From the NCBI GenBank assembly GCA_900143635.1, contig FREY01000004.1:248001-312000 (forward strand): a stretch of 64,000 nucleotides of DNA, given 5' to 3'. The DNA is from Rhodobacteraceae bacterium Alg231-04 (GTDB taxonomy: Bacteria > Pseudomonadota > Alphaproteobacteria > Rhodobacterales > Rhodobacteraceae). Below are positions 6,090 through 64,000 of this stretch, piece by piece (position 1 is the first letter of the stretch; each line of letters opens with the position of its first letter). Under the pieces are notes generated by a model. The model searched no databases and was not told the DNA's origin. It was given only the letters and a program-made list of their open reading frames with translations. The position numbers and the translations under genes were made by a program.

Positions 6090-7625
6090 TCAGCTGTTCC
6101 CCAGTATCATCAATTGCAGAGCGGCGCGGCGGGCAGTGTCTTCCAAACCAACAGCGCGCAATGTGGCCAATGCGCCTGTCAGGCTGGCATGATTGCCGGT
6201 GGCGCCGCTGTCAAAGAGGATCATGCTGCGCAAGATGGTTTCGCCCAGCTGACCGCGGTCCAGATGGCGCTGCAGATCGGTGGGAACCTTTGTCTCTGGG
6301 TTAAACCCGGCGCTGATGGCACGCGCACGCGCCGAGGGGGGTGATGCGCGGCCCGGATCGCCCATGGCCAGCGCGGCAAGAAAGGTGTTCGTGCGCGAAT
6401 TTCCGGGCGCGGTGGCTGCCACGGTTTCATAGTCGGGGGACAGCAGTTGAATACGCCAAGCCAGCGTCGCGGCCTGACCTTCAAGCGCAATATTGCCCAG
6501 CTCTGCAGCAAACAGCTCTGCAAAAGCCACCTCCAGCCCCGCTTCCTGCATCGCAGCCCAGGCCGGCGGCAATGTGGCGGCAACCTGTTCTGATTCACCA
6601 GAGTTCAGAGCCTTTTCGAAGTCTTGCAAGGCATCCACCCGGTCCCAGATCCCGCCCGAGGCAGAGGGCTGGCGCTGGCTATAGAGGCCCAGCAGGTGAT
6701 TGGGGTTCAGCGCGCCCGCCCGCGTCAGCCGTTCTGCGGCCTCCAGCTGTGCTTTCCAACCGGCGAGATCGCGCAGATCAGCCGCCGCAAAGGCGCGGGG
6801 CAGGGGCGGTGTCGGCATTGGCTCGCCAATCGATTCAAACAGCCGAAATTCGAGCGGGCTGGGCGATTGAGGGTGCGGCAGCGGCGGGGCAAGCTCTGCC
6901 ATTTCCGGGCTGAGGTAGCGGTCCAACAAGGCGTAATCGGCCGTCGAAAGCAGCCCCAGAGTCGCGGCCGTGTCCGCCAGCAGCGCCGCCGTCGGCCAGT
7001 CGCCGCGCTGAAGGGCGCAGAATACACGGGCGGTGTATTGGGGGGACAGTTGCGGCCGTGCCGTCAGCGCCGCGCAGGAGCGGTCTTCGTCTCCGGTGAG
7101 CAGCGTGGCATCAAACCAGCGCGCAAATCGCGCCGAAGTATCGGTGGGTCCGGCCTGCTGGGCCAACGCCTGGGCCGGATCCGGTGCGCCCAGATCCATC
7201 AGCCGGTCCAGCCGCGCCAGAATAATGCTTTCTTCTGAACCTGATCCGCTGGGCGGCCGCGTTTCAGCGAGAAGCAGTGTGAACAGCAACGCCTGCATTG
7301 CCGGATGGCCCCGCACCGGCACCTCTGCGATCAGCCGGGTCAATGTTTCGGCCTGACTGCCTTTCCACAGATCCACCGGCAGCCCGGTGGCGGATGGCCC
7401 AACCAGACCGATTGGCGGCATTAGCGCTTCTAGTGGGGCAACGCTGATCTCGGGCGAAAGGGCTGTCACCGCGACAGGCGGTTCAAGCAGAACGGTGCCC
7501 GGCATTCGGCTTGGCGGTGCTGCAGTGGACAGCCAGTTGATCGCGGACAGCGGCACGCTTTCCTGCGCTGCAAGCGGCAGCGCAAGACCCGTCACAAGAC
7601 CCGCGAGCAAGAGCCTAGTCTGCAT
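6090..7625 (-). CDS. Secreted alanine- and leucine-rich protein of unknown function
   Basis: I do not recognise a characterised family. The 511-residue protein begins with a signal peptide (MQTRLLLAGLVTGLALPLAAQE) and the rest is helical, alanine/leucine-rich and without further membrane spans, which looks like a TPR- or SEL1-like repeat scaffold in the periplasm. It sits between a 49-residue membrane protein, whose frame it overlaps by 11 bases, and xerD, which starts one base after its stop. The arrangement implies translational coupling of three genes. Function is unknown. Confidence 0.75.
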   Translation of the reverse strand: MQTRLLLAGLVTGLALPLAAQESVPLSAINWLSTAAPPSRMPGTVLLEPPVAVTALSPEISVAPLEALMPPIGLVGPSATGLPVDLWKGSQAETLTRLIAEVPVRGHPAMQALLFTLLLAETRPPSGSGSEESIILARLDRLMDLGAPDPAQALAQQAGPTDTSARFARWFDATLLTGDEDRSCAALTARPQLSPQYTARVFCALQRGDWPTAALLADTAATLGLLSTADYALLDRYLSPEMAELAPPLPHPQSPSPLEFRLFESIGEPMPTPPLPRAFAAADLRDLAGWKAQLEAAERLTRAGALNPNHLLGLYSQRQPSASGGIWDRVDALQDFEKALNSGESEQVAATLPPAWAAMQEAGLEVAFAELFAAELGNIALEGQAATLAWRIQLLSPDYETVAATAPGNSRTNTFLAALAMGDPGRASPPSARARAISAGFNPETKVPTDLQRHLDRGQLGETILRSMILFDSGATGNHASLTGALATLRAVGLEDTARRAALQLMILGNS

Positions 7626-44397: not shown

Positions 44398-45873
44398 ATG
44401 AGCAGCCTCACCCCCATCACATTTGCCGAATTCAACACCAGTGATCTGGCAGAGGCCGAAGGTCGTGTGGTCGTGGTGGTCAGTCCGGACGGCACGCTAG
44501 AGCCTGCCGCGCGCACGGCCAACCGGCTGACCAAGGGTGCGATTATGCGCATGGTGGAACAGGGCGCGTTTGAAAAAGCCAAGCCCGGTCAGGTCATTTC
44601 GCTGGCCTGGCCTGCCGGAATGAAGGCCGAGGCCCTTGATGTGCTGGTTCTGGCGCGCGCTGCGACAACCGCAGAGGCCCGCAAGGCCGGGTCGGCGCTG
44701 GCCAAACGCGCTGGCGGAAAAAGCGTTCTGGTCATGGCAGGTGCCATGCGCCGCGCGGATGAGCTGGCGATGGGCTTTGCGCTGCGCAGCTACCGGTTTG
44801 ACACCCATAAAACCGCAGACGTGGCGGCAGCAGACGGGGCGCTGACAATTGCGCATAAATCCGCCGATGCCATGGCTGAAAAGGCTGCGCCGCTGCTGGC
44901 TGTGGCCGAGGGCGTCCATATGACACGGGATCTGATCAACGAACCCGCCAATGTTCTGACCACAACAGAATTTGCCGCCCGTGCGGAGGAAATGAAGTCG
45001 CTCGGCCTTGAGATCGAAGTGCTGGACGAAGCGGCGCTGGAAAAGCTGGGCATGCGGACGCTGTTGTCCGTGGGGCAGGGGTCTGACAGCCCGTCCAAAG
45101 TTGTGGTCATGCAGTGGAAGGGTGGCGCCAAAGATGCCGCACCGCTGGCACTGGTTGGCAAGGGGGTGGTGTTTGATACCGGCGGCATCTCTCTGAAACC
45201 TGCGGGCGGCATGGAAGATATGACTATGGACATGGGCGGCGCTGGCGTGGTGACCGGCACCATGCGCGCCCTGGCGCTGCGCAAGGCCAAGGCCAATGTG
45301 GTGGGGCTGATCGGTCTGGTGGAAAACATGCCCTCGGGCAATGCCACCCGCCCCGGTGACGTTGTCACCTCGATGAAGGGCGATACGGTTGAGGTGATCA
45401 ACACCGATGCCGAGGGGCGGCTCGTTCTGTGTGACGTCATGTGGTACGCGCAGGAGCGGTTCAAACCGGCTGGCATGATCGATCTGGCGACGCTGACCGG
45501 CGCCATCATCATTGGTCTGGGCCATGAAAACGCCGGTGTGTTCTCCAATGATGATGCGCTGTGCAATGCGTTCCTCAAATCTGCCGCCGCCGAGGGCGAG
45601 GGCGCCTGGCGGATGCCGCTGGGCAAGGCCTATGACGATCAGCTGAAATCGCGCATAGCCGATATGAAGAATGTTGGCGGTCGTCCGGCGGGATCGATCA
45701 CCGCGGCGCAGTTTCTGCAGCGGTTTGTTCAGGACGGCACGCCTTGGATCCATCTGGACATTGCCGGCGTTGCCTCGGTCAAAACGGAAACCGATTTTGC
45801 CCCCAAGGGCGCGACAGGCTGGGGTGTTATCGCGCTCAACAGGCTTGTAGCGGATAAGTTCGAGGCGGAATAA
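44398..45873 (+). CDS. pepA: Leucyl aminopeptidase (M17)
   Basis: The start is ATG 44398 (MSSLTPITFAEF), seven bases after AGGAG; the frame extends upstream. The 491-residue protein has an N-terminal macro-like domain and a C-terminal catalytic domain with GVVFDTGGISLKPAGGMEDM, the Arg in GNATRPGD and the signature NTDAEGRLVL. It removes N-terminal residues using two metal ions. PepA can also bind DNA in some bacteria. holC follows, as commonly seen. Confidence 0.95.
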   Translation: MSSLTPITFAEFNTSDLAEAEGRVVVVVSPDGTLEPAARTANRLTKGAIMRMVEQGAFEKAKPGQVISLAWPAGMKAEALDVLVLARAATTAEARKAGSALAKRAGGKSVLVMAGAMRRADELAMGFALRSYRFDTHKTADVAAADGALTIAHKSADAMAEKAAPLLAVAEGVHMTRDLINEPANVLTTTEFAARAEEMKSLGLEIEVLDEAALEKLGMRTLLSVGQGSDSPSKVVVMQWKGGAKDAAPLALVGKGVVFDTGGISLKPAGGMEDMTMDMGGAGVVTGTMRALALRKAKANVVGLIGLVENMPSGNATRPGDVVTSMKGDTVEVINTDAEGRLVLCDVMWYAQERFKPAGMIDLATLTGAIIIGLGHENAGVFSNDDALCNAFLKSAAAEGEGAWRMPLGKAYDDQLKSRIADMKNVGGRPAGSITAAQFLQRFVQDGTPWIHLDIAGVASVKTETDFAPKGATGWGVIALNRLVADKFEAE

Positions 45874-51199: not shown

Positions 51200-51328
51200 A
51201 GGGAGAACATAAATCCCATCCCAGCCGCTGTCATCTGCAAAAGATGTAATATTTCTCATCGGATAGGAATTGACAGGGATGGCGGCCCGGCGGAAGGTTT
51301 GCGGCAAGGTGGGATGGGATGGGCCGCA

Positions 51329-52540
51329 ATGACAATCGACATAACTGAGTTTGATCTGGCCAATCCGCCTGCCGATTTCGCCGAGGATCCCTTTCCCTAT
51401 TACGACAGCCTGCTGCACGACGCGCCGGTATTGCCGCAGCCGGATGGGTCGGTTCTGATCAGCCGCCACAGCGATCTGGACCGGATCTACCGCGACACAA
51501 AGCTGTTTTCATCGGATAAAAAGGCAGCCTTTGGACCCAAGTTCGGCGTTGGTTCTCCCTTATATGAGCATCACACGACCTCGCTGGTGTTTTCCGATCC
51601 GCCATTGCACACGCGTGTGCGCAAGATCATGACATCAGCGCTGACACCGCGCGCGATATCGCGGATGGAACCGGGGCTGGTGGCAGCGGTGGATCACCTG
51701 CTGGACCAGATGGAAGAACAGGACACCACCGATCTGATCGAAGATTTCGCCGCCTCGATTCCGATCCAGATCATTGGCAATTTGCTGGATGTTCCGATGG
51801 AGGAACGCGGCCCGCTGCGTGATTGGTCGCTGGCCATTCTGGGCGCGCTGGAACCGGCGCTCAGCGATGATCAGCTGGCGCGGGGGCATCAGGCAGTAGA
51901 GGCGTTCAGCGCCTATCTGACAGATCTGATCGCCCGGCGCCGTGCGATGCCCGGTGACATAGAGACTGATGTGCTCACCCGGTTGATCGGCGGTGAGGGC
52001 GCCGGTGAGATGCTCAGTGAAATCGAGCTTATTCAGAACTGTATATTCATCCTGAACGCCGGCCACGAGACGACCACAAACCTGATCGGCAATGGCCTCG
52101 CCCTGTTGCATGACCATCCAGCGCAAAAGGCCCTTCTGTTGGCTAATCCGGCGCTGATCAAACCCGCGGTGGAAGAGGTGCTGCGGTTTCGGTCCCCGAA
52201 CCAGCTGGGCAACCGCGAGACCACGGCAGAAGTGGAGATCGGGGGCTGCCGGATTGCCAAGGGAACCAACCTGCACCTTATCATGGCAGCGGCCAACCGT
52301 GACCCGGAGGTGTTTGATAACCCAGAAGTTTTCGATATTTCACGCCACCCCAACCGCCACCTTGCCTTTGCCGGTGGGCCGCATGTCTGTGTCGGGCTGA
52401 CGCTGGCGCGGCTGGAGGGAAAGATCGCCATAGAACGCCTACTGCAGCGGTTCCCGGACTACCGTATCCTGCCCGGACGGGTGCCGGGCGGGCGGTTGCG
52501 CTTTCGCGGCTATGCCAATTTGGCCGCGACACTGCGATAG
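51329..52540 (+). CDS. Cytochrome P450
   Basis: The start ATG 51329 (MTIDITEFDL) gives 403 residues, normal for soluble bacterial P450s. Visible elements are the I-helix AGHETTTN (residues 244-251), the ExxR pair E283/R286, and the haem loop FAGGPHVCVG with the thiolate Cys354. It resembles CYP101/CYP107-like soluble monooxygenases. No ferredoxin or reductase gene is adjacent, so its redox partners and substrate are unknown. Confidence 0.93.
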   Translation: MTIDITEFDLANPPADFAEDPFPYYDSLLHDAPVLPQPDGSVLISRHSDLDRIYRDTKLFSSDKKAAFGPKFGVGSPLYEHHTTSLVFSDPPLHTRVRKIMTSALTPRAISRMEPGLVAAVDHLLDQMEEQDTTDLIEDFAASIPIQIIGNLLDVPMEERGPLRDWSLAILGALEPALSDDQLARGHQAVEAFSAYLTDLIARRRAMPGDIETDVLTRLIGGEGAGEMLSEIELIQNCIFILNAGHETTTNLIGNGLALLHDHPAQKALLLANPALIKPAVEEVLRFRSPNQLGNRETTAEVEIGGCRIAKGTNLHLIMAAANRDPEVFDNPEVFDISRHPNRHLAFAGGPHVCVGLTLARLEGKIAIERLLQRFPDYRILPGRVPGGRLRFRGYANLAATLR

Positions 52541-52604: not shown

Positions 52605-53219
52605 TCAGAACAGGCCGGCTTCTTTGGCTGTCATTGCCGCCTGGGTGCGGTTTTTTGCATCCAGCTTGCGGCATAGAGTTCGAACATGAAGCTTGATCGT
52701 GACTTCCTGAAGCTGCAATTCGCGGGCGATTTCTTTGTTGGACATGCCGCGGCACAGGCCGGCCAGCACTTCATTTTCCCGCGTGGTCAGCAGCTGGGCG
52801 ATAGGGTGCGTGGGAACGGCGGTTTTTTCGCGCATCAGGGATACGGGCACAAAGACCTCGCCCGACACCATGAAGCGTACCGCATTCAGCAAAGATTGTG
52901 CGCCCAGTGTTTTGGGCAGATAGCCAATGGCCCCGGCATCCAGCGCTTCCTGTGCTGTCCGGTTGGGCGCTGTGCCGGACAGGATGGCGACCCCTTTGCC
53001 ACCATTTGCCTTTAACGCGCGGCCCAGCCCGTCAAGGCCCATCATTCCGGGCATATTGTAGTCCAGCAAGACCAGATCAAACGGCCCATCGCGGCGGATC
53101 TTGTCCAGGGCTTCGCCTAAATCGGTGGCAAGAGAGACCTCTGCACCGCCTTCTGATTGAAGATAGGCTGAAATGGTTTCGCGGACCAAGTCGTGATCGT
53201 CTGCCAACAATAAGCGCAT
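52605..53219 (-). CDS. NarL/FixJ-type response regulator with LuxR HTH
   Basis: The 204-residue protein has a receiver domain (1-120) with acidic pocket DDH near residue 8 and the phospho-acceptor Asp53 in LLDYNMPG. A LuxR-type helix-turn-helix follows (about 140-204, TTRENEVLAGLCRGMSNKEIARELQLQEVTIKLHV). It is transcribed away from the sulfite-oxidase-fold gene and the hybrid kinase, and is a likely output of that kinase. Confidence 0.9.
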   Translation of the reverse strand: MRLLLADDHDLVRETISAYLQSEGGAEVSLATDLGEALDKIRRDGPFDLVLLDYNMPGMMGLDGLGRALKANGGKGVAILSGTAPNRTAQEALDAGAIGYLPKTLGAQSLLNAVRFMVSGEVFVPVSLMREKTAVPTHPIAQLLTTRENEVLAGLCRGMSNKEIARELQLQEVTIKLHVRTLCRKLDAKNRTQAAMTAKEAGLF

Positions 53220-53533
53220 AAATGTTCCGGGTCGGATGTGAAATCTGCCTACAAGGTTACCCTAGGGAACTTTGCAAATCCATCAAGATTGTCTGCAGGT
53301 GTCTCACAAGACGCGAGGTTATTGTATCCCTTTTTGGGTACTATCGGCATGAAATTTATGTGGGTTTGGGTTCTCTTGGGATCTCACCTGCCTCAGGCGT
53401 GCCTTTGGCACCGTGGTGGGCGTAAAACACGCCTTCTGGATTGGTTTTCATGCAGCGCTATGGGTGTTCTGCTGCGGTTTTCGTGGCAGGGTGGGTGGGT
53501 GAATTTTAACCTGTGCGTGTTGGAGTGGTAATC
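53220..53533. other. Intergenic region between the response regulator and the kinase operon
   Basis: These 314 bases lie between divergent genes and look poorer in GC than their surroundings. Short frames exist on the plus strand, but their composition (many Trp and Cys) argues against a gene. The region probably holds both promoters. GGAG, eight bases before 53534, is the ribosome site of the next gene. Confidence 0.5.
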
Positions 53534-54007
53534 ATGACCCTGTGGAAGATCCGCCTTGTCGCTTTTGGTTTGGCGCTTGTTTCAGCGGTTGCAGCAATTG
53601 GCGGAACCATTGTTTTGAGTGTTGATGGGCCGGACGGCCACAAATATTTTGATATGGGCATGCTGCAGGAAATGCCCTCTGTCACCATTGAAACAGAAAC
53701 CATCTGGACCGATGGAGAACAGGTCTTCACCGGGGTGTCCCTGCAGGAGCTGGCGCGCCACCTTGGCATAGAGAATGGCGCCTTCGAGGCGGTGGCGACA
53801 AATGCCTATTCGGTGGAAATCCCGATGACCGACGCGGTTGAGGGGGGGGCTTTGATTGCGTATGAACGCAATGGACTGGCGATGACGGTGCGCGACAAGG
53901 GGCCTTTGTGGATCGTCTACCCCTATGACCACAATCCTAGGTATCGATCCGAAGAAACCTATTCACGCAGCATCTGGCAATTGGAAAAGCTGATCGTGAA
54001 ACCCTGA
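53534..54007 (+). CDS. Periplasmic protein with sulfite-oxidase-like (molybdopterin-binding) fold
   Basis: The start ATG 53534 (MTLWKIRLVAF) has GGAG upstream. The 157-residue protein has an N-terminal signal or anchor segment and a domain like the oxidoreductase molybdopterin-binding family: ETIWTDGEQVFTGVSLQELARHLG and GPLWIVYPYDHNP. No cysteine occurs anywhere, so the Cys that binds molybdenum in sulfite oxidase is missing. The kinase gene follows 18 bases downstream, so it probably acts as a sensing partner. That role is inference. Confidence 0.72.
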   Translation: MTLWKIRLVAFGLALVSAVAAIGGTIVLSVDGPDGHKYFDMGMLQEMPSVTIETETIWTDGEQVFTGVSLQELARHLGIENGAFEAVATNAYSVEIPMTDAVEGGALIAYERNGLAMTVRDKGPLWIVYPYDHNPRYRSEETYSRSIWQLEKLIVKP

Positions 54008-54025
54008 TACGGGAGACGTAGCACT

Positions 54026-56497
54026 TTGCCGTTGAACACGGAAATCCGGAAATGGCTGGCAGCGCCTGTTGGCGGTGTTTTGGTGCTTCTGATTATCTCA
54101 GCGGTGTTTCTGGGGCGCGAGCTGCTGCGCCAGGTTGACGGGCTGTCGACCGCCGAGGCTGACAATGTGCAATGGAACCTGTCGCAGGGCGAGGTGGAGC
54201 ATTTACGTCTGGAAGGGGCTGTGAATGCTGTGCCGCAGGGTGGCAGCCTGTCAGAGGTCCGCCGCCGGTTTGATGTGTTTTACAGCCGCATTGCCATCTA
54301 CCAGGAAAGTCACCTGTATCAGGGGGTTCGGCAAGATCCGGTGACCGGGCCGCTGCTGCGGGACATCCAGGCCAGTATGGATACGCTGGTTCCCCTCATC
54401 GACGGCCCGGATGAAATTCTCCACAAAACGGTGCCAAAGATGCAAGAGCTGCTGGCGGAACAGGCCACAGATGTTCGCCGCCTTTTGATCGCAGGAATCG
54501 CCGTGCATACACAGGAAACCGAGGTCCGTCGCAATGCGTTGCGGCTGATACTTGTTCGGCTTGGCTGGGTCTTGGTGTTTCTCGTCGGCGCGTTGATTGC
54601 CGGGGCCAATGTTCTGTGGCTGCTCAATCGCCGGGCCAAGCAACTGGCCAAGGAAAGCGCCGAATCCGCCGCCCGGATGGAGGCCATGGTCTCCTCCTCG
54701 CTGGATGCGATCCTGATGGTGGATACAGAGGGCTTCATCAGAGGATTTAACGGCGCCGCCGAGGCCATCTTTGGCTATACGCAGGCAGAGGCCATTGGTC
54801 GGCCGATGGCCGAGTTGATCATTCCTGAACAATTCCGGACGGCCAACAAGACAGGCTTGCCGCGGTTTTCCAACGCCGCGGCACGCCCCGGCACTGGCAA
54901 GGGACGTATTCGCCTGCAAGCGCTGCACAAAACCGGGCGCGTCTTTCCTGTCGAGCTGTCAATCAAGCCCAGCACCTCTGGCGGCGACACTGTTTTTGTA
55001 AGCTTCCTGCGCGATATCACCGAACAGTTGGAGGCGGAGGAGGAGTTGAGGCGCGCCCGTGATGATGCGCTTGCGGGGGAAAAGGCCAAGGCCAATCTTC
55101 TCACCGTCATGAGCCACGAGATGCGGACCCCGCTGAACGGCGTACTGGGGGCCATCAACCTATTGGATGACACCGGGATAACCAAGGATCAGCGCCGCTA
55201 TCTGGATGCGATGCGCGTGTCTGGTGATCTGTTGCTGAACCATGTGAATGATGTGCTGGAACTCTCCCGTCTGGAGGCGGGGATCACCGCAGAGGAGGTC
55301 AGGGTTTTTGATCTTGCGGCATTGGTTTCGGGTCTCGGCGAAAGCCAGCAGGCCAGTGCCGCCAGACGCGGCAATCAGATCCAGGTCGACATTAGCCTGG
55401 GCCGCGAACACCATGCTTTGGGGGATCCGCTGCAGGTCCAGCGGGTGCTGTTGAACCTGCTTGGAAATGCGCTGAAATTCACCCGCGGCGGGACCATTAC
55501 CATCTCGGTCAGCCGACAGGGTGATCTGGTCGAGTTTTCGGTGGCCGACACCGGCGTAGGGATCGAAAGCGATGATCTGGAGCGGATCTTTGATGAGTTC
55601 ATCACCCTTGATGCATCCTATGCGCGGCAAAGCGAAGGAACCGGGCTTGGCCTGTCGATTTCGCGGCGCATTGTCCGCGCAATGGGGGGGGAGATAGGCG
55701 CCGAAAGCGAACCGGGCGAAGGAAGCCTGTTCTGGTTCACCGTGTCGTTGCCCGCCGCCCTACCTGAGACGGAAAGATCTTCCAGGCCACCGGCCCTGGG
55801 GGATGTCGGCCGCCGGATCCTGATCGTGGAAGACAATGAGATCAACCGCCTGCTTCTTGTAAAAGTATTGGAGAAACACGGGCATGAGGTCACATCCGCC
55901 TGCGGAGGTGAAGAAAGTGTGCAGATTGTTGGCGGCCAGAGGTTTGACCTGATCCTGATGGACATCAGTATGCCGGGGATGGATGGCATCGAGGCCGTGT
56001 CCCGGATACGGCGCGGGCGGCTGGCGGAAAACACCCCGATCGTTGCGCTAACGGCCCATGCGGCGGCCGAAGACCGTCAGCGCATCCTGCGGGCCGGCTT
56101 TGCCGAGGTGCTGACCAAACCGGTGAGCCAGAAGGATCTGGCCACTGCAATCCGGGATTACACCGGAACATCCCACGCCAATGCCGACCAGACAGCCGAA
56201 GGCATTCGCGCCGTCTTTGACGGGCTGGGGTCAGACCGTGCGGCCTATTACCTCAACCGGTTTCAGCGCGAATACCTTATGTTGCGGGCTGGGGTGAACA
56301 GCGGATCCTCGCCAGACAAGGCGCTCAGGGCAGAGGCGCACAGGCTCGCCGGGTCGGCCTCCATCCTTGGATTGAAACCTCTGCAGAATTGCCTTGCCGC
56401 ACTCGAGGCTGCCGACGACAGCCCCGTCGATGTCGCCGCTTTGGATGCGGCCTGGGAACGGGCAGAAACTGTGATAACAGCCGCGCTGGAAATCTGA
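54026..56497 (+). CDS. Hybrid sensor histidine kinase with PAS, receiver and Hpt domains
   Basis: TTG 54026 is taken as start (MPLNTEIRKW), nine bases after GGGAGA; no ATG fits. The 823-residue protein has a membrane span (about 13-30), a periplasmic helical domain (30-175), a second span (about 180-200), PAS (about 215-335), HisKA with His364 in SHEMRTPLNG, HATPase (about 465-575), a receiver with Asp646 in LILMDISMPG and a C-terminal Hpt with His772 in EAHRLAGSAS. This is a full phosphorelay chain in one protein. Its partner is probably the NarL-type regulator at 52605-53219. Confidence 0.93.
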   Translation: MPLNTEIRKWLAAPVGGVLVLLIISAVFLGRELLRQVDGLSTAEADNVQWNLSQGEVEHLRLEGAVNAVPQGGSLSEVRRRFDVFYSRIAIYQESHLYQGVRQDPVTGPLLRDIQASMDTLVPLIDGPDEILHKTVPKMQELLAEQATDVRRLLIAGIAVHTQETEVRRNALRLILVRLGWVLVFLVGALIAGANVLWLLNRRAKQLAKESAESAARMEAMVSSSLDAILMVDTEGFIRGFNGAAEAIFGYTQAEAIGRPMAELIIPEQFRTANKTGLPRFSNAAARPGTGKGRIRLQALHKTGRVFPVELSIKPSTSGGDTVFVSFLRDITEQLEAEEELRRARDDALAGEKAKANLLTVMSHEMRTPLNGVLGAINLLDDTGITKDQRRYLDAMRVSGDLLLNHVNDVLELSRLEAGITAEEVRVFDLAALVSGLGESQQASAARRGNQIQVDISLGREHHALGDPLQVQRVLLNLLGNALKFTRGGTITISVSRQGDLVEFSVADTGVGIESDDLERIFDEFITLDASYARQSEGTGLGLSISRRIVRAMGGEIGAESEPGEGSLFWFTVSLPAALPETERSSRPPALGDVGRRILIVEDNEINRLLLVKVLEKHGHEVTSACGGEESVQIVGGQRFDLILMDISMPGMDGIEAVSRIRRGRLAENTPIVALTAHAAAEDRQRILRAGFAEVLTKPVSQKDLATAIRDYTGTSHANADQTAEGIRAVFDGLGSDRAAYYLNRFQREYLMLRAGVNSGSSPDKALRAEAHRLAGSASILGLKPLQNCLAALEAADDSPVDVAALDAAWERAETVITAALEI

Positions 56498-56500
56498 AAC

Positions 56501-57940
56501 TCAGTCGGCTGCGCTATGCGCGGGTTCGGGAACCGGAGTATGGTTAAAGCAATATGCCGAGGCACAGGCTTCCTCTCCGCCCAGCTCGTTGATCCGGGCG
56601 CGTTGGTCCAAAAAGGCCTGAGTGTTGATCTCTTCGGGGTCGCAAATATCGCGAAGCCGCCGCTCTCCTTCCTTGATAAGTGACTTTGATTCAGTGCGTT
56701 GTGACAGGTCGTTCAACTCGTCTGGATCCGAGGAAAGGTCAAACAGCTGTGGTTGAAGGCCGACGTAATGTATGTATTTCCATTTGTCCCAGCGGACCAT
56801 GAAAGCACCGGTTTTGGACCCGCCGTCATGATACTGTGACAGGATGGTCCGGTTTGGGTCATCCGGCTGACCTGCCAGTTCCAGAAGCGAAAGTCCGGGT
56901 TTATCATCCGCCGCCAGCCCGGCTACATCGCGGGCGGTAGCGGCAAGATCCAGCAGGCTGGTGCCCGTAGAGACCTGATGCCCGGCAGGAATACCGGGAC
57001 CTGCGGCGATCATCGGAACACCGGCGCTTGCGTCATACATCACCTGTTTTGTCCAAAACCCCTGATCGCCCATCATGTCGCCGTGGTCAGAGACATAGAT
57101 CACCAGCGTGTCGTCGGCCTGACCGCTTTTTTCCAACGCGGCCAACACGCGGCCCACGCAATGATCCATGAAACTGGTCAGCCCGTAATAGGCGACCTTG
57201 GCCTGGCGCATTTTGTCTTCATCAAAACTCTGATCATAGGCAAAGAAGTTGGCGATATTCTGTAACTCGGGGTGTTCTGGTGCCCCCTTTCGCCAGGCCA
57301 CCGGCATGTCCATTTCTGCGGGATCATACATGTCATAAAACGCGTCCGGAGCCGTCAGCGGGTAGTGTGGGCTTACCAGTGAGACAAACCCGGCCCAGGG
57401 GGTCGCGCTGTCCGCACGTGCCGCGATCCAGTCTTCGGCAGCGCTGGTGATCGCGTGATCATAGTCGGTGTAGGAACTGCTGCCACGGCCGACATCCTGG
57501 GCAAGCTCCTGCGCCTCGTCATAGGCGGGCGGGGCGTCCCGCAAAAGCCCGATTGCCCAGCCGATACCGCCGACCACATGCATCGGCAGGATCTCTTCTG
57601 AGAAACCGTTATCATCTTCGGTGCTGCGGAAATGCAGCTTGCCTATGGATGTGGTGTGCATGCCAGCGTCGACAACCTCCGCCATCCAGCTCGGCCGGTT
57701 GCCGTTATAGGGCGTGGCGCTGTCCCAGTTTTTGCACTGGTGAACATGCAATCCAGTAGCGACGGCTGCCCGTGCAGGCACGCACATGGGCGAGGGGGTA
57801 TAGGCGTTTGTAAAGCGGGTGCCTCGTGCGGCCAAAGCATCCAGATGTGGAGTTTTGACGATCGGATGACCGGCACATCCCATCGCATCCTTTCGGTGTT
57901 CGTCGGACATGATGATCAGCAGGTTTTTTGCGCGCGTCAT
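56501..57940 (-). CDS. Sulfatase (alkaline phosphatase superfamily, type I)
   Basis: The 479-residue enzyme has the metal ligands in IIMSDEHRKDAMG and the sulfatase signature PMCVPARAAVATG. There Cys53 of CxPxR would be converted to formylglycine. Late motifs include VIYVSDHGDMMGDQGFWTKQ. It has no signal peptide, so it is probably cytoplasmic and acts on a small imported sulfate ester, as choline sulfatase does. Substrate not determinable. It converges with the kinase gene, with three bases between the stops. Confidence 0.9.
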   Translation of the reverse strand: MTRAKNLLIIMSDEHRKDAMGCAGHPIVKTPHLDALAARGTRFTNAYTPSPMCVPARAAVATGLHVHQCKNWDSATPYNGNRPSWMAEVVDAGMHTTSIGKLHFRSTEDDNGFSEEILPMHVVGGIGWAIGLLRDAPPAYDEAQELAQDVGRGSSSYTDYDHAITSAAEDWIAARADSATPWAGFVSLVSPHYPLTAPDAFYDMYDPAEMDMPVAWRKGAPEHPELQNIANFFAYDQSFDEDKMRQAKVAYYGLTSFMDHCVGRVLAALEKSGQADDTLVIYVSDHGDMMGDQGFWTKQVMYDASAGVPMIAAGPGIPAGHQVSTGTSLLDLAATARDVAGLAADDKPGLSLLELAGQPDDPNRTILSQYHDGGSKTGAFMVRWDKWKYIHYVGLQPQLFDLSSDPDELNDLSQRTESKSLIKEGERRLRDICDPEEINTQAFLDQRARINELGGEEACASAYCFNHTPVPEPAHSAAD

Positions 57941-59456: not shown

Positions 59457-60152
59457 TCAAGTGCGCGATTTTTCGAATTCCGCCCAGGCCTCGGCAAAAT
59501 CCTCGAAGGTGAAACCGTCTTTGCGGGCGGCGTTCAGAACGATTTTCTCGGTTTCCAGCAGCTTGAGGATCGCCTCTTCCAGCTGGCCGATCACATCCTG
59601 CGGGATCACCAGCGCGCCGTGGCGGTCGGCGTGGATCAGATCGCCGTCGTTGACGGTCATGCTGAAAATCTCGACCTTGGTGGCGATCTCTCTCACATGC
59701 ACGAACCCGTGGCTGGGACCAATGGAGCCTGCCACAACCGGGAAGCCCTCCGGGCAGTCGCCAAGGTCGCGCATCACCCCGTTGGTCAGCGCGCCGGCCA
59801 TGCCGAACCCCTTGTGGACGGTGGTGTTGATCTCGCCCCAATAGGCACCGATGCAATGGGGGAAATCCACGTCCTCGACCACGGCGACGGTTGGGCCTTC
59901 ACCGCCGGACATGTGTTTGTAATAGGCCATGCGGCGCTCTTTGATGACCTCTGGCGCCTCGCTCGGCGGGTTCACGGCGGCGATTTTGGCGGTGCGGGCA
60001 TAGCCGACGATGGCGCCTTCTTCGGGCGCCGAACACAGCATGGTGCCGCGGGTGAAATCGTTGAAGCCGCGTTTGCCCTGCGCCACTTCGATGGCGTTGC
60101 AGACTGTGGGTGTGTCGACGCTTTGCAGCAGTTTCAGCAGGGACGGGGTCAT
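59457..60152 (-). CDS. RraA-like family protein (HMG/CHA aldolase type)
   Basis: ATG 60152 (MTPSLLKLLQSV) overlaps the stop of the upstream gene by four bases, which supports this start over a longer frame. The 231-residue protein has the RraA/HMG-aldolase core: ALTNGVMRDLGDCPEGFPVVAG, with the Arg-Asp pair of the metal/pyruvate site, and NDGDLIHADRHGALVIP. Relatives are pyruvate aldolases of aromatic ring-cleavage pathways or regulators of RNase E. In this catabolic-looking cluster an aldolase or decarboxylase role is more likely, but this is inference. Confidence 0.85.
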   Translation of the reverse strand: MTPSLLKLLQSVDTPTVCNAIEVAQGKRGFNDFTRGTMLCSAPEEGAIVGYARTAKIAAVNPPSEAPEVIKERRMAYYKHMSGGEGPTVAVVEDVDFPHCIGAYWGEINTTVHKGFGMAGALTNGVMRDLGDCPEGFPVVAGSIGPSHGFVHVREIATKVEIFSMTVNDGDLIHADRHGALVIPQDVIGQLEEAILKLLETEKIVLNAARKDGFTFEDFAEAWAEFEKSRT

Positions 60153-60844
60153 ATATCCTCCAGCCAGCGGGCCAGGGCCGCTGTGGTCTGTTCGGGTTGT
60201 TCCAATACCGGCACATGGCCGGCGTTTTCGATGATTTCCAGGCGGCTGCCTGTGAGAAGATCGAGCATCAGCTCGTGCCTGTGTACCGGGCACAGCGTGT
60301 CTTCGCGCCCGCAGAGCACCAGCGCCGGGCCGGTATAGGCCTGCAAGGTGCCGCGTTGATCAGGGCGGTCCATCAATGCCTTGGATTGATTGAGAAACAC
60401 CTGATCACCCAGATCCATTGCCATGGTCATGCACAGGTCCAGCGTGGCCCCCTGACCGGGGCCATCGGCCAGATAGTTCGGCTTCATCTCTTCGCGCATG
60501 ACTTTCCACAGGTCGCCTTTGCGCACCGCTTCCATCTGTGGCGCACGGCCCGCCTTGACCTCTGGTTTTTCGGCCAGCGGGTTGGTATCCAAAAGGGCAA
60601 GGCCCGCCACACGGTCCGGGGCTTGGCGCAGCACTTCCATGGCGACAATGCCGCCCATGGAGAGGCCCGCCAGCCCAAAACGGGCAGGGGCGTTTTGCAA
60701 CACCTCTGCCGCCAGGGCCTCAACACTGTCATACCCGCCGATGGGCGCGCACATGACTGCGCGCGCGCCGGAAAAGGCCGCGATCTGTGGCTGAAACAGC
60801 CGGGCATCACACATCATGCCTGGCAAGAGAAGAAGTGGTGTCAC
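60149..60844 (-). CDS. Alpha/beta-fold hydrolase
   Basis: GTG 60844 is chosen: it follows GAGG at six bases and begins just after the stop of the MetE-like gene, giving 231 residues. The fold is clear: LLLLPGMMCDARLF with the oxyanion region, nucleophile Ser in GLSMGGIVAMEVL, Asp in CGREDTLCPVHRH and His in ENAGHVPVLEQPE. It hydrolyses esters, thioesters or C-C bonds of some small molecule. It is coupled to both neighbours. Confidence 0.87.
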   Translation of the reverse strand: MTPLLLLPGMMCDARLFQPQIAAFSGARAVMCAPIGGYDSVEALAAEVLQNAPARFGLAGLSMGGIVAMEVLRQAPDRVAGLALLDTNPLAEKPEVKAGRAPQMEAVRKGDLWKVMREEMKPNYLADGPGQGATLDLCMTMAMDLGDQVFLNQSKALMDRPDQRGTLQAYTGPALVLCGREDTLCPVHRHELMLDLLTGSRLEIIENAGHVPVLEQPEQTTAALARWLEDI

Positions 60845-60851
60845 CGGTGCC

Positions 60852-61985
60852 TCACAACCGGCCAGAGGCCAGTTTCGCGCCCTCAGACAGGGAACCCAGC
60901 TTGGCATAGGCGATATCGGGGTCCACTGCACCAAAGCCCGCGAAAGTTCCAAAGCCGCAGTCGCTGCCCGCGATTACGCGGTCCGCACCAACGATACCGG
61001 CAAAGCGTTCAATCCGCTGGGCGACCAGTTCGGGGTGTTCGACAAAGTTGGTTGTGGTGTCGACAACGCCGGGCACCAGGATTTTGTCTGCCGGAATCTC
61101 GCCCTTGCGGCCACGGAACACGGTCCACTCATGAGCGTGGCGCGGATTTGACGTCTCAAACAACAGGTACTGTGCCTTGGTGTTCATTAGAGTGGTGAAA
61201 ACCGTGTCCATCGGGATATCGCAGCAATGCGGCCCCTCATAGTTGCCCCAGCAGATATGCACGCGCACCTTGTCGGCCGGCACGTTCTGCAGTGCATGGT
61301 TCAGCGCCTCCACATGCATGTTGGCGATGTTGAGGAACTCGGCGTCGGTCATATCGGCGAACAGCATGTGGCGCGACAGGGCCAGATCGGGGCAGTCCAG
61401 CTGCAGGTCCAGTCCGGCGCCGACGATGGTCTCGTATTCTTCTTTCATGGCATCGGCCAGCGCCGCTAGATAGGCCTCGCGGCTGCCATAGAAATCGTTT
61501 TGCAGGAACAGCGAGATCACACCGGGGGAGGCGGCATTCATGAAGCCGCGCTCGGCGCCATGTTCCGCCATGGCTGCCTTCAGGTTGGCGATGTCCTTGT
61601 TCAGCTCGTCCTGGCCTTTAGAGCGCACCTCGCCGGTGCACATGGGGCGTGCGTACTGTGGCGTGCCGCCGTCATCGGCCAGCCGCTTCAGGAAACCGGG
61701 GAACATCTTCAAATCGGCCGGCGCATTGCGCGGGCTGTCACCGGAAAAGCCGGTGTAGCGGTCCTTGACGTAGGTGGCATAAGAGATTTTCGAGGTCTCA
61801 CCATCGCTGACAATATCCACACCCGCCTCGACCTGCTTTTTCACGGTCTCGCTGACGGCTGCGGTCATGCAGGCGTCAAAATCGGCCTGCGCATAGGGTT
61901 TTTCATTTTCGCGGGCAAAGATGAAATCCACCACCTCCTGCGTGCGGGGAAGGGATCCTACGTGCGATGTGCGGATATTGGCCAT
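60852..61985 (-). CDS. Cobalamin-independent methionine synthase family protein (MetE C-domain type)
   Basis: The 377-residue protein corresponds to the catalytic half of MetE only. The zinc ligands His243 and Cys245 (VHICWG) and Cys343 (GSDCGFG) and Glu277 (FETSNP) are present, so it should bind zinc and activate a thiol. Full MetE has about 750 residues with a second N-terminal domain that is absent here. Short relatives include methyltransferases and epoxyalkane:coenzyme M transferases of about this length. The neighbours suggest a catabolic rather than a methionine-synthesis role; this is inference. Confidence 0.85.
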   Translation of the reverse strand: MANIRTSHVGSLPRTQEVVDFIFARENEKPYAQADFDACMTAAVSETVKKQVEAGVDIVSDGETSKISYATYVKDRYTGFSGDSPRNAPADLKMFPGFLKRLADDGGTPQYARPMCTGEVRSKGQDELNKDIANLKAAMAEHGAERGFMNAASPGVISLFLQNDFYGSREAYLAALADAMKEEYETIVGAGLDLQLDCPDLALSRHMLFADMTDAEFLNIANMHVEALNHALQNVPADKVRVHICWGNYEGPHCCDIPMDTVFTTLMNTKAQYLLFETSNPRHAHEWTVFRGRKGEIPADKILVPGVVDTTTNFVEHPELVAQRIERFAGIVGADRVIAGSDCGFGTFAGFGAVDPDIAYAKLGSLSEGAKLASGRL

Positions 61986-62035
61986 GGTGTCTGTCCTTTG
62001 TTCTCAAATTCATGTGCCCGTGCGCGTCAGGCAGA

Positions 62036-62055
62036 GTCCGTCCCGAAGGGCGGAC
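62036..62055. repeat. Small hairpin between bicupin and MetE-like genes
   Basis: GTCCGTCC (62036-62043) pairs with GGGCGGAC (62048-62055) over eight positions with one G-U, around a CGAA loop. It lies next to the larger hairpin at 62057-62091. Confidence 0.55.
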
Positions 62056-62056
62056 A

Positions 62057-62091
62057 GCCGCCGGGAGGGGCTCGATGTCCCTCCCGGCGGC
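62057..62091. repeat. Strong 13-pair hairpin between bicupin and MetE-like genes
   Basis: GCCGCCGGGAGGG (62057-62069) and CCCTCCCGGCGGC (62079-62091) are perfect reverse complements around a nine-base loop. It lies 14 bases after the cupin stop on the minus strand, without a U run. It could attenuate transcription or protect the upstream mRNA from 3' decay. Confidence 0.65.
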
Positions 62092-62105
62092 GCGTTGCGT
62101 CAGGC

Positions 62106-63065
62106 TCAGCCGGCCCAGGTGGCGCCAGCTTGATCATCCGTCGCGGTGATGCGGTAAAGACCTGCCTCGCCGGTCATCGAGGGTGCGGTGCTGTAGCTTT
62201 CACCGGGCAGCACCAGGGCGGTATCGCCGGCCGACAGTGTGGTCTTGACCTCATTAATGGTGATGCGCCAGTGGCCAGTGGCCGGCATCAGAACCACGGG
62301 TTTTTCAGCGGTGATCTGTTCCTCGACGGCAGAGCCGCGGCTCAGGAAGTCCACTTCGAAGCCCGGTTTGTCCTTTAGGATCGCGTCCTCGCCGATCACC
62401 TTGGCGGGTTTCTTGGCGCTCAGCGCTAGCAGGTCCAGATAGCGGGCGACATAACCGGGGATCACATCCTCGACCGGCACTTCCGGGAAATCCTTCAACT
62501 GCTCGTCCGTAAGCAGCGGCATCGGGTTCACGTTATGCGGCAGTTCCTGGCCTTTTTTGCTGTCATACAGCACGCCGTTTTCGCCAAGTTGCAGCCCGTG
62601 GGACTGCGCTTCCTCGATCACATGGGGGGCCCAGGTGACACCGCCGCCGGCATCGTCACCACCGAGGATCGCCATGATCATGCCGTAGTCCTGGCCGACG
62701 TTCTCAAAACCGCGGAAGATACCGGTGGGAATGTTGAAGATATCGCCTTCCTCGGCGATGAATTCACCCGCGGTGCCATGCAGGCCCCAGAAAAAGCGCC
62801 AGCGGCCTTTGGCCACAAAGAACACTTCTGCAGTGGTGTGGCTGTGCAGGCTGTTGCGGCATTTCGGCGGCTGACCTGCCGCGCCGATGTTGAAGCCGAT
62901 CTTGTCGGTGATGTGGACGTGCTGGTCCGGGCTTTCGGAAACACCGCCGCCGACGATGGTGAAGTTTTCCTTCTGGTCCGAACCCGGCGTGTGGGCGTCA
63001 ATGAAAGCGGTTTTGCAGGGTTTCAGCTCGCCGTAGCGAACGATGCGGGATTGAATGGAGCTCAT
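62106..63065 (-). CDS. Bicupin protein resembling gentisate/aromatic dioxygenase-type cupins
   Basis: The 319-residue protein has a first cupin with NSLHSHTTAEVFFVAKGRWRFFWG and GEFIAEEGDIFNIP, and a second near the C-terminus with VVLMPATGHWRITIN and LSAGDTALVLPGE. The His-x-His and Glu of the first cupin suit a metal site; the second has lost them. The arrangement recalls gentisate 1,2-dioxygenase-like bicupins. No reaction can be assigned. The ATG start is at 63065. Confidence 0.8.
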   Translation of the reverse strand: MSSIQSRIVRYGELKPCKTAFIDAHTPGSDQKENFTIVGGGVSESPDQHVHITDKIGFNIGAAGQPPKCRNSLHSHTTAEVFFVAKGRWRFFWGLHGTAGEFIAEEGDIFNIPTGIFRGFENVGQDYGMIMAILGGDDAGGGVTWAPHVIEEAQSHGLQLGENGVLYDSKKGQELPHNVNPMPLLTDEQLKDFPEVPVEDVIPGYVARYLDLLALSAKKPAKVIGEDAILKDKPGFEVDFLSRGSAVEEQITAEKPVVLMPATGHWRITINEVKTTLSAGDTALVLPGESYSTAPSMTGEAGLYRITATDDQAGATWAG

Positions 63066-63120
63066 GGGTGATTTCCTTGTGTTGAGACGTTTAGAGAGAC
63101 GCGAATTCTCCTTCGTCCTG

Positions 63121-63149
63121 GCGGGCGGTTGTTCAGCCGGCGCGCCCGC
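63121..63149. repeat. Hairpin between SnoaL-like and bicupin genes
   Basis: GCGGGCG (63121-63127) and CGCCCGC (63143-63149) form seven perfect pairs, in the 165-base gap that separates the two genes. It is GC-rich and has no U run. Confidence 0.4.
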
Positions 63150-63230
63150 AAAGAGGCGCGGTGGCCGTGATAGGCCCGCGTCCCTTGCCGATTATCCAGC
63201 TGATATGCCCCACAGGAAATCACTGTGATC

Positions 63231-64000
63231 TCAACCCGTTTGCATCAGGATCTGTTTCCAGACCGAGGTTTCGTCAAACAGAGTGAATTCATGCCGCAGT
63301 TTTGGCTCGCCGCCAACAAGCGCGCCAAATTCGGCGTGGCTGATGCCCATCACATGTACCTTGGCACCGGTAGGTGCGCCAAAGCTGCCCCGGCCATCAT
63401 GGGTGCCGGTGAGGCTCCAGCGGATAGCCGAGCGCGGTGGCATCATCGGACCATTGCGGCCGATCTGGTGATGGATCTGGAACACGGCAGAGGGCAGGGC
63501 GGCGCGCAGCCCCATCCAGAAGTTTTCCGCCGACCCATAGGAATGCCCGCTGACGCCGCCCGGGAATTCGGTGCGCACCGCGCGGTCGTAATCGCGCACC
63601 ACGGTCGCGATGTCAGCATTCATGATCCGGGTCAGAATGTCGGCGTGACGCTGACCCCATTCATTGTCATTGCCGCGGCCCTTATAAGGGCCTTCCAGAT
63701 CATTGTCCGGCGTCAGTGGCTTGATGCATTTGTCCGGGCCGCCTTCATTGGCAATCTGGTTGGTTGCAAATTCCTTTGGGTCCCAGCCCATTTGCCGCAC
63801 AATCGCGCCCTGATCGCGGATCAGCCATTCATCATTGATCTGGTTGTTGATCGCGTGGCAGTCGGCAATGCCGCGGAACACCAATTTGGTGCCTGTGGCC
63901 TTGCCAAACGCACCGTCCCCCAGATGGGTCGCGGTGTTGAGGATCCGGTGGGACGACAGCATGCCCTCCTCCGGCGTGCCGGACCAGATCACATCCTCGG
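63231..64000 (-). CDS. SnoaL-like (NTF2-fold) protein, 5' end outside the window
   Basis: The frame is open at the right edge; the residues before GTG 63992 read in frame as Glu-Asp-Val, so the N-terminus lies outside. The last 256 or so residues contain a SnoaL/ester-cyclase-like half with SAENFWMGLRAALPSAVFQIHHQIG and RWSLTGTHDGRGSFGAPTGAKVHVMGISHAEFG. A first, similar half seems to precede it (VIWSGTPEEGMLSSHRI and on), so the protein may hold two NTF2 folds. Such proteins isomerise, cyclise or hydrolyse small substrates. It is the first visible gene of the minus-strand cluster. Confidence 0.75.
   Translation of the reverse strand, partial: EDVIWSGTPEEGMLSSHRILNTATHLGDGAFGKATGTKLVFRGIADCHAINNQINDEWLIRDQGAIVRQMGWDPKEFATNQIANEGGPDKCIKPLTPDNDLEGPYKGRGNDNEWGQRHADILTRIMNADIATVVRDYDRAVRTEFPGGVSGHSYGSAENFWMGLRAALPSAVFQIHHQIGRNGPMMPPRSAIRWSLTGTHDGRGSFGAPTGAKVHVMGISHAEFGALVGGEPKLRHEFTLFDETSVWKQILMQTG

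Follow-up and report, generated by a model that had tools for sequence, protein, structure and literature searches.

What might a bacterium do with a stand-alone protein resembling the C-terminal half of a methionine synthase, encoded among genes that look catabolic? This question is raised by five genes at the end of a 64,000-nucleotide stretch of Rhodobacteraceae bacterium Alg231-04 (GenBank assembly GCA_900143635.1; bases 248001–312000 of the 472-kb contig FREY01000004.1, genome size 4.8 Mb), hereafter called the window. The genes encode, in the order of transcription, a two-domain SnoaL-like protein (SnoA), a bicupin, a zinc protein resembling the C-terminal domain of MetE (MetE-like protein), an alpha/beta hydrolase and an RraA-like protein. 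The cluster looks like the tail of a larger gene set, widespread in Roseobacter-type bacteria, for importing and breaking down a small molecule. Our preferred reading, which we judge to be evenly poised between right and wrong, is that of a catabolic operon under LacI control whose MetE-like protein would act as a homocysteine-dependent demethylase; this reading names no particular substrate.

A conserved operon of catabolic type

The five genes lie head to tail on the minus strand, as an earlier note on this DNA had described, and each product scores above the curated Pfam cut-off of its family (SnoaL, Cupin_2, Meth_synt_2, Abhydrolase_6 and RraA-like). The SnoA gene (63231–64000; SnoaL and SnoaL_2) is cut by the window edge; the whole gene, a full open reading frame at 6232–7224 of our locus L002, encodes 330 aa and has its 5′ end 223 bases past the window. 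The genes for the bicupin (62106–63065, 319 aa; Cupin_2, 9.2e-9) and the MetE-like protein (60852–61985, 377 aa; PF01717, Meth_synt_2, 3.1e-12) are preceded by wider gaps of 165 and 120 bases, respectively. The last three genes are tightly coupled, again as described: 7 bases separate the MetE-like stop codon from the GTG of the hydrolase gene (60149–60844, 231 aa if the start is the GTG of relatives; Abhydrolase_6, 1e-12), and an ATGA is common to the hydrolase stop and the start of the RraA-like gene (59457–60152, 231 aa; PF03737, 2.7e-14).

For comparison, 80 relative loci were picked by similarity of the MetE-like protein from among the matches listed, and the resulting counts show the constancy of the neighbourhood of close MetE-like genes, not the frequency of the operon. 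The order HisD-SDR-LacI-SnoaL-bicupin-MetE (SDR, short-chain dehydrogenase/reductase) was kept on one strand in 70 of the 73 loci reaching 6.6 kb upstream, and the arrangement is therefore more than chance. Absence of the set outside this strain and unrelated neighbourhoods in relatives had both been named beforehand as outcomes that would refute the cluster; the set proved to be conserved elsewhere, in most relatives with the same neighbourhood. Among loci long enough for each gene, and with fixed identity cut-offs, LacI (78/78), SnoA (78/78) and HisD (73/73) were always present, followed by the bicupin (76/78), SDR (75/77), SnoC (68/72), SnoB (69/76) and the RraA-like protein (67/77). In 295 sampled genomes of the family, the MetE-like protein was matched in 116 (E ≤1e-80) and the bicupin in 119 (E ≤1e-100); both occurred in 106 genomes, the MetE-like protein only in 10, the bicupin only in 13 and neither in 166. 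Pairwise identities of the MetE-like protein correlated with those of other operon proteins (0.47–0.67), a figure that has no unlinked control protein beside it and is not used as evidence.

Listing the genes beyond base 64000, as the earlier note had proposed, revealed a catabolic-type operon with an importer and a LacI regulator. The five genes form the 3′ end of a 15-gene run on one strand, and the whole cluster comprises about 17 genes when two divergent ones are counted. Past the window edge, LacI comes first on the same strand and is followed by an SDR, a SnoaL protein with two domains, a dehydrogenase of the HisD family, a single SnoaL protein and another two-domain one; the run closes with the transport genes, which encode two permeases, the solute-binding protein and a MalK-type ATPase. 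The divergent genes encode the fifth SnoaL protein of the cluster (SnoE) and an amidohydrolase, so that four SnoaL proteins beyond the window join SnoA. The Pfam scan outside the window covered ten proteins, permeases and MalK not among them. Weak similarity links the solute-binding protein to SmoF, a sulfoquinovosyl-glycerol-binding protein, and to other sugar-binding proteins. A plasmid of Ruegeria conchae carries these genes in identical order. The LacI protein, the sugar-type ABC importer, the dehydrogenases and an RraA-family protein with the E-X20-R-D motif all support the earlier view of a conserved catabolic cluster.

Two LacI-type palindromes, TTTTGCATACGTATGCAAAA and a near-copy, lie between MalK and the divergent SnoE gene. 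They are the only matches in the genome to the 16-base core at ≤2 mismatches, and the reversed control pattern gave one match. With a looser pattern, R. conchae and Paracoccus alcaliphilus each show one site in the corresponding position, against 0.13 and 0.07 sites per locus expected by chance; this pattern had no match inside the window, which excludes the MalK/SnoE region. A palindrome hunt upstream of the bicupin, SnoC, HisD, SnoA and MetE genes of relatives detected no shared operator; candidate operators came up in the MalK/SnoE region only. We read the two palindromes as putative operators to which LacI would bind. Separately, 40 of 78 stretches 5′ of the bicupin gene in relatives contain the 8-mer TGGAAACA.

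The MetE-like protein

The protein was set against MetE both by profile alignment and by structure prediction. As the earlier note had claimed, the four zinc ligands are kept and the N-terminal half of MetE is absent: H243, C245, E277 and C343 align with the zinc ligands H641, C643, E665 and C726 of Escherichia coli MetE, and the 377 residues align end to end with the C-terminal halves of the E. coli and Thermotoga maritima enzymes. The same alignment places S11, E63 and D197 at S433, E484 and D599 of E. coli MetE, which we take to be its homocysteine ligands, and F160 at W561, presumably the folate-stacking residue. Among 72 close sequences in the alignment (own included), none departs from H243, C245 or C343, and one (L014) has Asp instead of E277, which the other 71 keep; S11, E63 and D197 are kept in 72/72. 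All seven ligands are invariant in a second set of 31 sequences, composed of 24 close ones and 7 distant sphingomonad, actinobacterial, haloarchaeal and enterobacterial relatives with 36–53% identity; the W561 position is Phe in 27 of these 31. The predicted model (mean predicted local distance difference test score, pLDDT, 81) has a single MetE C-domain fold, with 3rpd (Z 34.1, root-mean-square deviation (rmsd) 2.4, 313 residues aligned) as the best fold match and 1xdj (Z 32.7, rmsd 2.5, 329 aligned) as another.

With the catalytic domain of MetE and the stand-alone core-MetE and Mes proteins (PF01717), the protein has in common the fold and the zinc and homocysteine ligands. Unlike MetE, it has no N-terminal half, mostly carries Phe in place of the folate-stacking Trp, and has its gene in an operon alongside LacI and catabolic genes. 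The duplicated N-terminal barrel for methyltetrahydrofolate, a trait of canonical MetE, is missing, and scores against NCBIfam models are far below the cut-offs (TIGR01371, 19.2 bits versus 929.95; best methionine synthase model, 87.4 versus 406). An ordinary MetE was rejected on these grounds.

The earlier note had offered two roles for short relatives of MetE, action on epoxides with coenzyme M or movement of methyl groups. Methyl removal stands as the most likely role, and the coenzyme-M role finds no support, because all the homocysteine-binding residues are kept; the protein is most likely a homocysteine S-methyltransferase and not a coenzyme-M enzyme. Relatives in three sphingomonads (51–53% identity) are encoded close to genes annotated in the records as MTHFR and a GcvT-like protein; PurU, FolD and lig genes are also nearby in two of the three. 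Together with the ligands, these neighbourhoods favour methyl transfer to homocysteine over coenzyme-M chemistry.

More distant relatives have other surroundings. On plasmids of Dietzia and Rhodococcus (L086 and L117), the genes that follow a relative with 47–48% identity encode an oxygenase of the 2-oxoglutarate/iron type, a YaaH transporter, a protein of the phytanoyl-CoA dioxygenase type and a protein with an HD domain; the combination is reminiscent of phosphonate oxidation. On a Halobaculum plasmid (L087, 9980–12637), a haloarchaeal relative (42%) lies directly 5′ of a FAD-dependent oxidoreductase gene.

The bicupin, hydrolase and RraA-like protein

The bicupin model (mean pLDDT 82; residues about 24–47 poor) has the two-cupin fold, and H74, H76, E80 and R118 are invariant in 26 aligned sequences. 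Its fold matches are led by salicylate/gentisate 1,2-dioxygenase (2phd; Z 18.8, rmsd 3.3, 230 aligned), and it also resembles quercetinase (Z 18.1); with these enzymes it shares the fold at Z of about 18 and only 10–14% sequence identity. Among solved structures searched up to E = 0.1, its sole sequence match was an acireductone dioxygenase at 0.038, which is not significant. We propose that the bicupin is a putative oxygenase cleaving a ring or an enediol.

The best NCBIfam relatives of the hydrolase are PcaDC and PcaD, far below cut-off, so that it can be called PcaD (enol-lactonase)-like. The class II pyruvate aldolases of the RraA superfamily are characterized by the motif E/D-X20-R-D. The RraA-like protein carries E-X20-R-D in 54/54 aligned sequences (own included), a motif common to it and the LigK/HMG-CHA aldolases; its score against the LigK CHA aldolase model TIGR02798 is 22.4 bits versus a cut-off of 304.5, which sets it in a subfamily of its own, and its matches among solved structures are weak. 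It is proposed to be a putative pyruvate-type (LigK/HMG-aldolase-like) retro-aldolase.

Proposed pathway and candidate substrate

Each reaction of the following scheme is one that we infer from the gene set. The sugar-type ABC importer would take up a small polar molecule, and SnoaL-fold enzymes, in some strains with an amidohydrolase or amidase, may trim its substituents. HpsN is known to oxidise CH2OH to COOH by 4 electrons. In the operon, the HisD/HpsN-type dehydrogenase would oxidise a CH2OH beside C-OH, and the SDR a second alcohol. On the MetE-like protein, zinc-activated homocysteine would take an activated methyl group of the enol-ether or ester type, with no folate, to yield methionine. 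To our knowledge, it would be new for homocysteine to receive a methyl group from a natural enol ether with neither folate nor cobalamin involved. Using O2, the bicupin would open the ring or enediol left by demethylation; the hydrolase would open a lactone or ester, and the RraA-like protein would cleave a 4-hydroxy-2-oxo acid into pyruvate and a C4 fragment, so that the pathway would end in the aldol cleavage that the earlier note had suggested. With this scheme we commit to a methyl-bearing and CH2OH-bearing substrate whose core oxygen would open and an aldolase would split.

The compounds that fit best on paper, and that we favour as candidates, are the mycosporine-like amino acids (MAAs) and gadusols, sunscreens of algae and marine animals; we put them forward tentatively, at a low probability of being the actual substrates. 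In their ring, two carbonyl or amino positions flank a 2-methoxy enol ether, and the CH2OH is borne by a tertiary alcohol. SnoaL-fold enzymes would strip the amino substituents, the HisD-like dehydrogenase would turn the ring CH2OH into COOH, and the MetE-like protein would move the enol-ether methyl to homocysteine. The bicupin may then split the reductone between the enediol carbons, giving 4-carboxy-4-hydroxy-2-oxoadipate, a substrate type of RraA-superfamily aldolases, which the RraA-like aldolase would split into pyruvate and oxaloacetate. For otnK-type relatives, we propose that the CH2OH stays unoxidised and that gadusol yields pyruvate and 3-oxo-tetronate, presumably the substrate for which OtnK is named. 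No published account of the operon or of genes for MAA breakdown was found in the open-licence literature, outside which most subscription papers lie.

Several observations weigh against the demethylation reading or its parts. At the cut-off used for the hydrolase (at least 50% identity), it was found in 61 and not found in 18 of 79 eligible loci. The exact palindrome pattern occurs in 4 other loci (L057, L071, L075 and L112) among 147, most relatives' loci stopping short of that region. The roles given to the SnoaL proteins are guesses. In the bicupin, the usual third His ligand is seemingly lacking and R118, read by eye, sits at its expected place; seed-storage globulins are also among the fold matches (Z 16.2–17.7), and since the two-cupin fold is common to storage globulins and alone shows no function, a dioxygenase role is not proved. 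A methyl-folate or methylcobalamin donor may also be compatible with the homology of the MetE-like protein. Finally, an otherwise present operon has no MetE-like gene between bicupin and hydrolase in four genomes (L129, L130, L132 and L134), nor have the operon stretches of plasmids from Paracoccus alcaliphilus and Tritonibacter (L110 and L111); in such operons the methyl step is dispensable or otherwise performed. MetE-less operons, which also occur in soil and plant bacteria, therefore weaken the case for any always-methoxylated substrate such as MAAs.

The MetE-like gene as an optional module

The MetE-like gene is an optional module of the operon. Whole-genome searches of L129, L130, L132 and L134 gave no MetE-like match. 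These are among the nine examined (L127–L135) of the 13 bicupin-only genomes (G115, G119, G222 and G227 were left out); of the others, L128 and L135 end after the bicupin, and L127, L131 and L133 have another layout with a second HisD type. From the 10 genomes with the MetE-like gene only, seven were examined (L136–L140, L142 and L143; G090, G156 and G185 were left out). In L138, L139 and L140 the match is a relative with 47–48% identity that lacks the operon, L142 has a bicupin scoring below the cut-off, and in L136, L137 and L143, where HisD, SDR and the MetE-like gene are present, no bicupin was found. L141, which has both genes, carries a 49% relative apart from the operon.

Nine distant bicupin loci (L118–L126) were hand-picked from the match lists. 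In eight of them, a hydrolase gene lies close by, as does an HpcH/HpaI or “aldolase/citrate lyase” gene of the aldolase family; the ninth, from Cupriavidus (L126), has neither, and there the bicupin match extends over half the protein only. HisD is present in three of the eight (Novosphingobium, Klebsiella and Pantoea), and otnK with an adjacent “aldolase”, which we take for OtnC, in three others (Thioclava, Vibrio and Ensifer NER9); neither was seen in Roseomonas, where the record ends, or in Rhizorhabdus. The earlier note, with 5 of about 17 genes in view, had placed the MetE-like protein at the centre of the cluster; the recurring part in 8/9 distant loci is the bicupin with the hydrolase and an aldolase-family gene. 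This pattern would fit breakdown of MAAs or gadusols but is no proof of it.

An alternative, rather unlikely in our judgment, is a substrate without a methyl group: a sugar acid, a reductone or a compound of the tetronate type, such as an acid resembling ascorbate or tetronate. The MetE-like gene would then only add methylated variants in some bacteria. LacI and a sugar-type ABC transporter would fit such a substrate, and no MetE-like gene accompanied the related bicupins in the stretches from Roseibium, Paracoccus, Martelella, Alloyangia, Sinorhizobium, Klebsiella and Pantoea or in the otnK-labelled stretches of Thioclava, Vibrio and Ensifer. The OtnK-type tetronate loci (Vibrio pelagius, Thioclava and Ensifer NER9; the otnI label is in Vibrio only) have genes for a bicupin, a hydrolase and an HpcH-type aldolase beside otnK as their likeness to the cluster, and, unlike it, no HisD, SDR or MetE-like gene. 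However, the MetE-like gene is also present in 106 of the 119 bicupin-positive genomes of the family, in which the methyl step is therefore the rule, and an aldolase would, on chemical grounds, be superfluous for ascorbate.

A probable counterpart in Phaeobacter inhibens

A relative of the MetE-like gene has been deleted in Phaeobacter inhibens: the accessible part of PMC12366255 describes the deletion of PGA1_c27430 (“mes-like”) as a possible methionine synthase gene in work on the lag phase with dimethylsulfoniopropionate (DMSP), and makes no mention of an operon around it. In Phaeobacter italicus, the two downstream primers of that study fall in the hydrolase and RraA-like genes, each with 2 mismatches; the upstream forward primer fits the bicupin with 4 mismatches in P. 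italicus and 1–2 in five other loci; the upstream reverse primer and two verification primers had no close match in the six loci (4–8 mismatches at best). Judged from these three of six primer segments, and not from the genome, PGA1_c27430 very likely stands between the same genes (bicupin on one side, hydrolase and RraA-like on the other), in the same local order as here. In the open-licence literature searched, PGA1_c27430 is named only in PMC12366255.

These data bear on the idea that the MetE-like protein is a core methionine synthase, which we regard as distinctly unlikely. The zinc and homocysteine ligands are kept, the best fold match, 3rpd, is a stand-alone “B12-independent methionine synthase”, and PMC12366255 and PMC12478193, as far as accessible, treat a P. 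inhibens homologue as a core methionine synthase. According to the accessible part of PMC12366255, a bmt mutant shows low residual growth without methionine, and this might be caused by a second methionine synthase, a point that weakens the contrary evidence given next. On the other side, the gene is embedded in an operon with LacI, an importer and catabolic enzymes, and the bmt mutant is the only one for which the accessible part of PMC12366255 names methionine supplementation; the mes-like mutant, for which none is named, retained the shortening of the lag phase by DMSP. A repressed operon and an absent methyl donor could explain why mes-like leaves mutants of the other methionine route not fully prototrophic.

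The HisD/HpsN-type dehydrogenase

The closest solved relatives of the HisD-like protein are HpsN dehydrogenases for sulfopropanediol, or 2,3-dihydroxypropane-1-sulfonate (DHPS), with E of about 1e-111; histidinol dehydrogenases reach 5.6e-69 at best. The available part of PMC11382572 gives GRY[A/S]H, in which His126 binds the sulfonate, for HpsN (8v35, the best solved match) and GSAPL for HisD. The cluster protein has the GDK lysine in common with HpsN, in 59/59 aligned sequences (own included), corresponding to K353 of CpHpsN, a residue that binds the sulfonate there, by counting on the printed alignment; unlike HpsN, it reads GKFPM in 59/59, with Met in place of the sulfonate-binding His. 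We take it to be a putative third subfamily, whose substrate would have a CH2OH next to a C-OH and an anionic or keto oxygen close by, expected two carbons away. Breakdown of DHPS or another sulfonate through this dehydrogenase, which its nearest solved relatives and the GDK lysine would suggest, is very improbable and was rejected as unlikely by the motif test. In addition, two paralogues in the same genome, with 45–46% identity to the cluster protein, carry the GRYSH form of the HpsN motif described in PMC11382572 (L090 and L091), and Pfam scans of the 17-gene cluster (two permeases and MalK left out) gave no assignment to SuyAB, CuyA or Xsc.

The GRYSH dehydrogenases are encoded at 45146–46405 of contig C12 and 153834–155093 of contig C15, and DHPS use is thus likely encoded apart from the operon. 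A further HisD subfamily with the motif GR[YF]PL (44–45% identity to that of the cluster) occurs at L113 16349–17635, L114 1499–2788 and L118 10136–11434; amidase, bicupin and aldolase genes are present in these loci as well. The accessible part of PMC4103551 lists two histidinol dehydrogenases in Roseobacter litoralis proteomics, neither of which could be tied to the operon.

Least probable of all is that the MetE-like protein is an XecA-like lyase of coenzyme-M or other thiol conjugates, which was rejected as unlikely, its membership of the PF01717 superfamily and weak tblastn matches (25–29% identity, one annotated as 2-hydroxypropyl-CoM lyase) notwithstanding, as the homocysteine site is kept in 72/72 and 31/31 sequences and a plasmid gene annotated xecA1 (L145, 2992–4017) adjoins MetR and FMN reductase genes, which makes even that label look doubtful. 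That gene looks like a misnamed methionine-synthase-type protein.

Other genes in the window

At lower window coordinates, a choline-sulfatase/arylsulfatase-like protein is encoded at 56501–57940 on the minus strand (E 4e-78; 263.5 bits versus a cut-off of 433.45), and a cytochrome P450, with no NCBIfam model above cut-off, at 51299–52540 on the plus strand. A small protein with an oxidoreductase-molybdopterin domain adjoins a hybrid histidine kinase with an Hpt domain (53513–56497 on the plus strand and 52605–53219 on the minus strand); a NarL-like response regulator lies nearby, suggesting a possible sensor system.

Biological meaning

The operon is thus a conserved one, whose marker genes are present in 116 (MetE-like) and 119 (bicupin) of 295 genomes of the family and which has no assigned substrate in the literature found. 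Should an MAA or gadusol prove to be the substrate, these genes could be used to follow in metagenomes what becomes of marine sunscreens. In that case, the sunscreen would also be a methyl donor for methionine.

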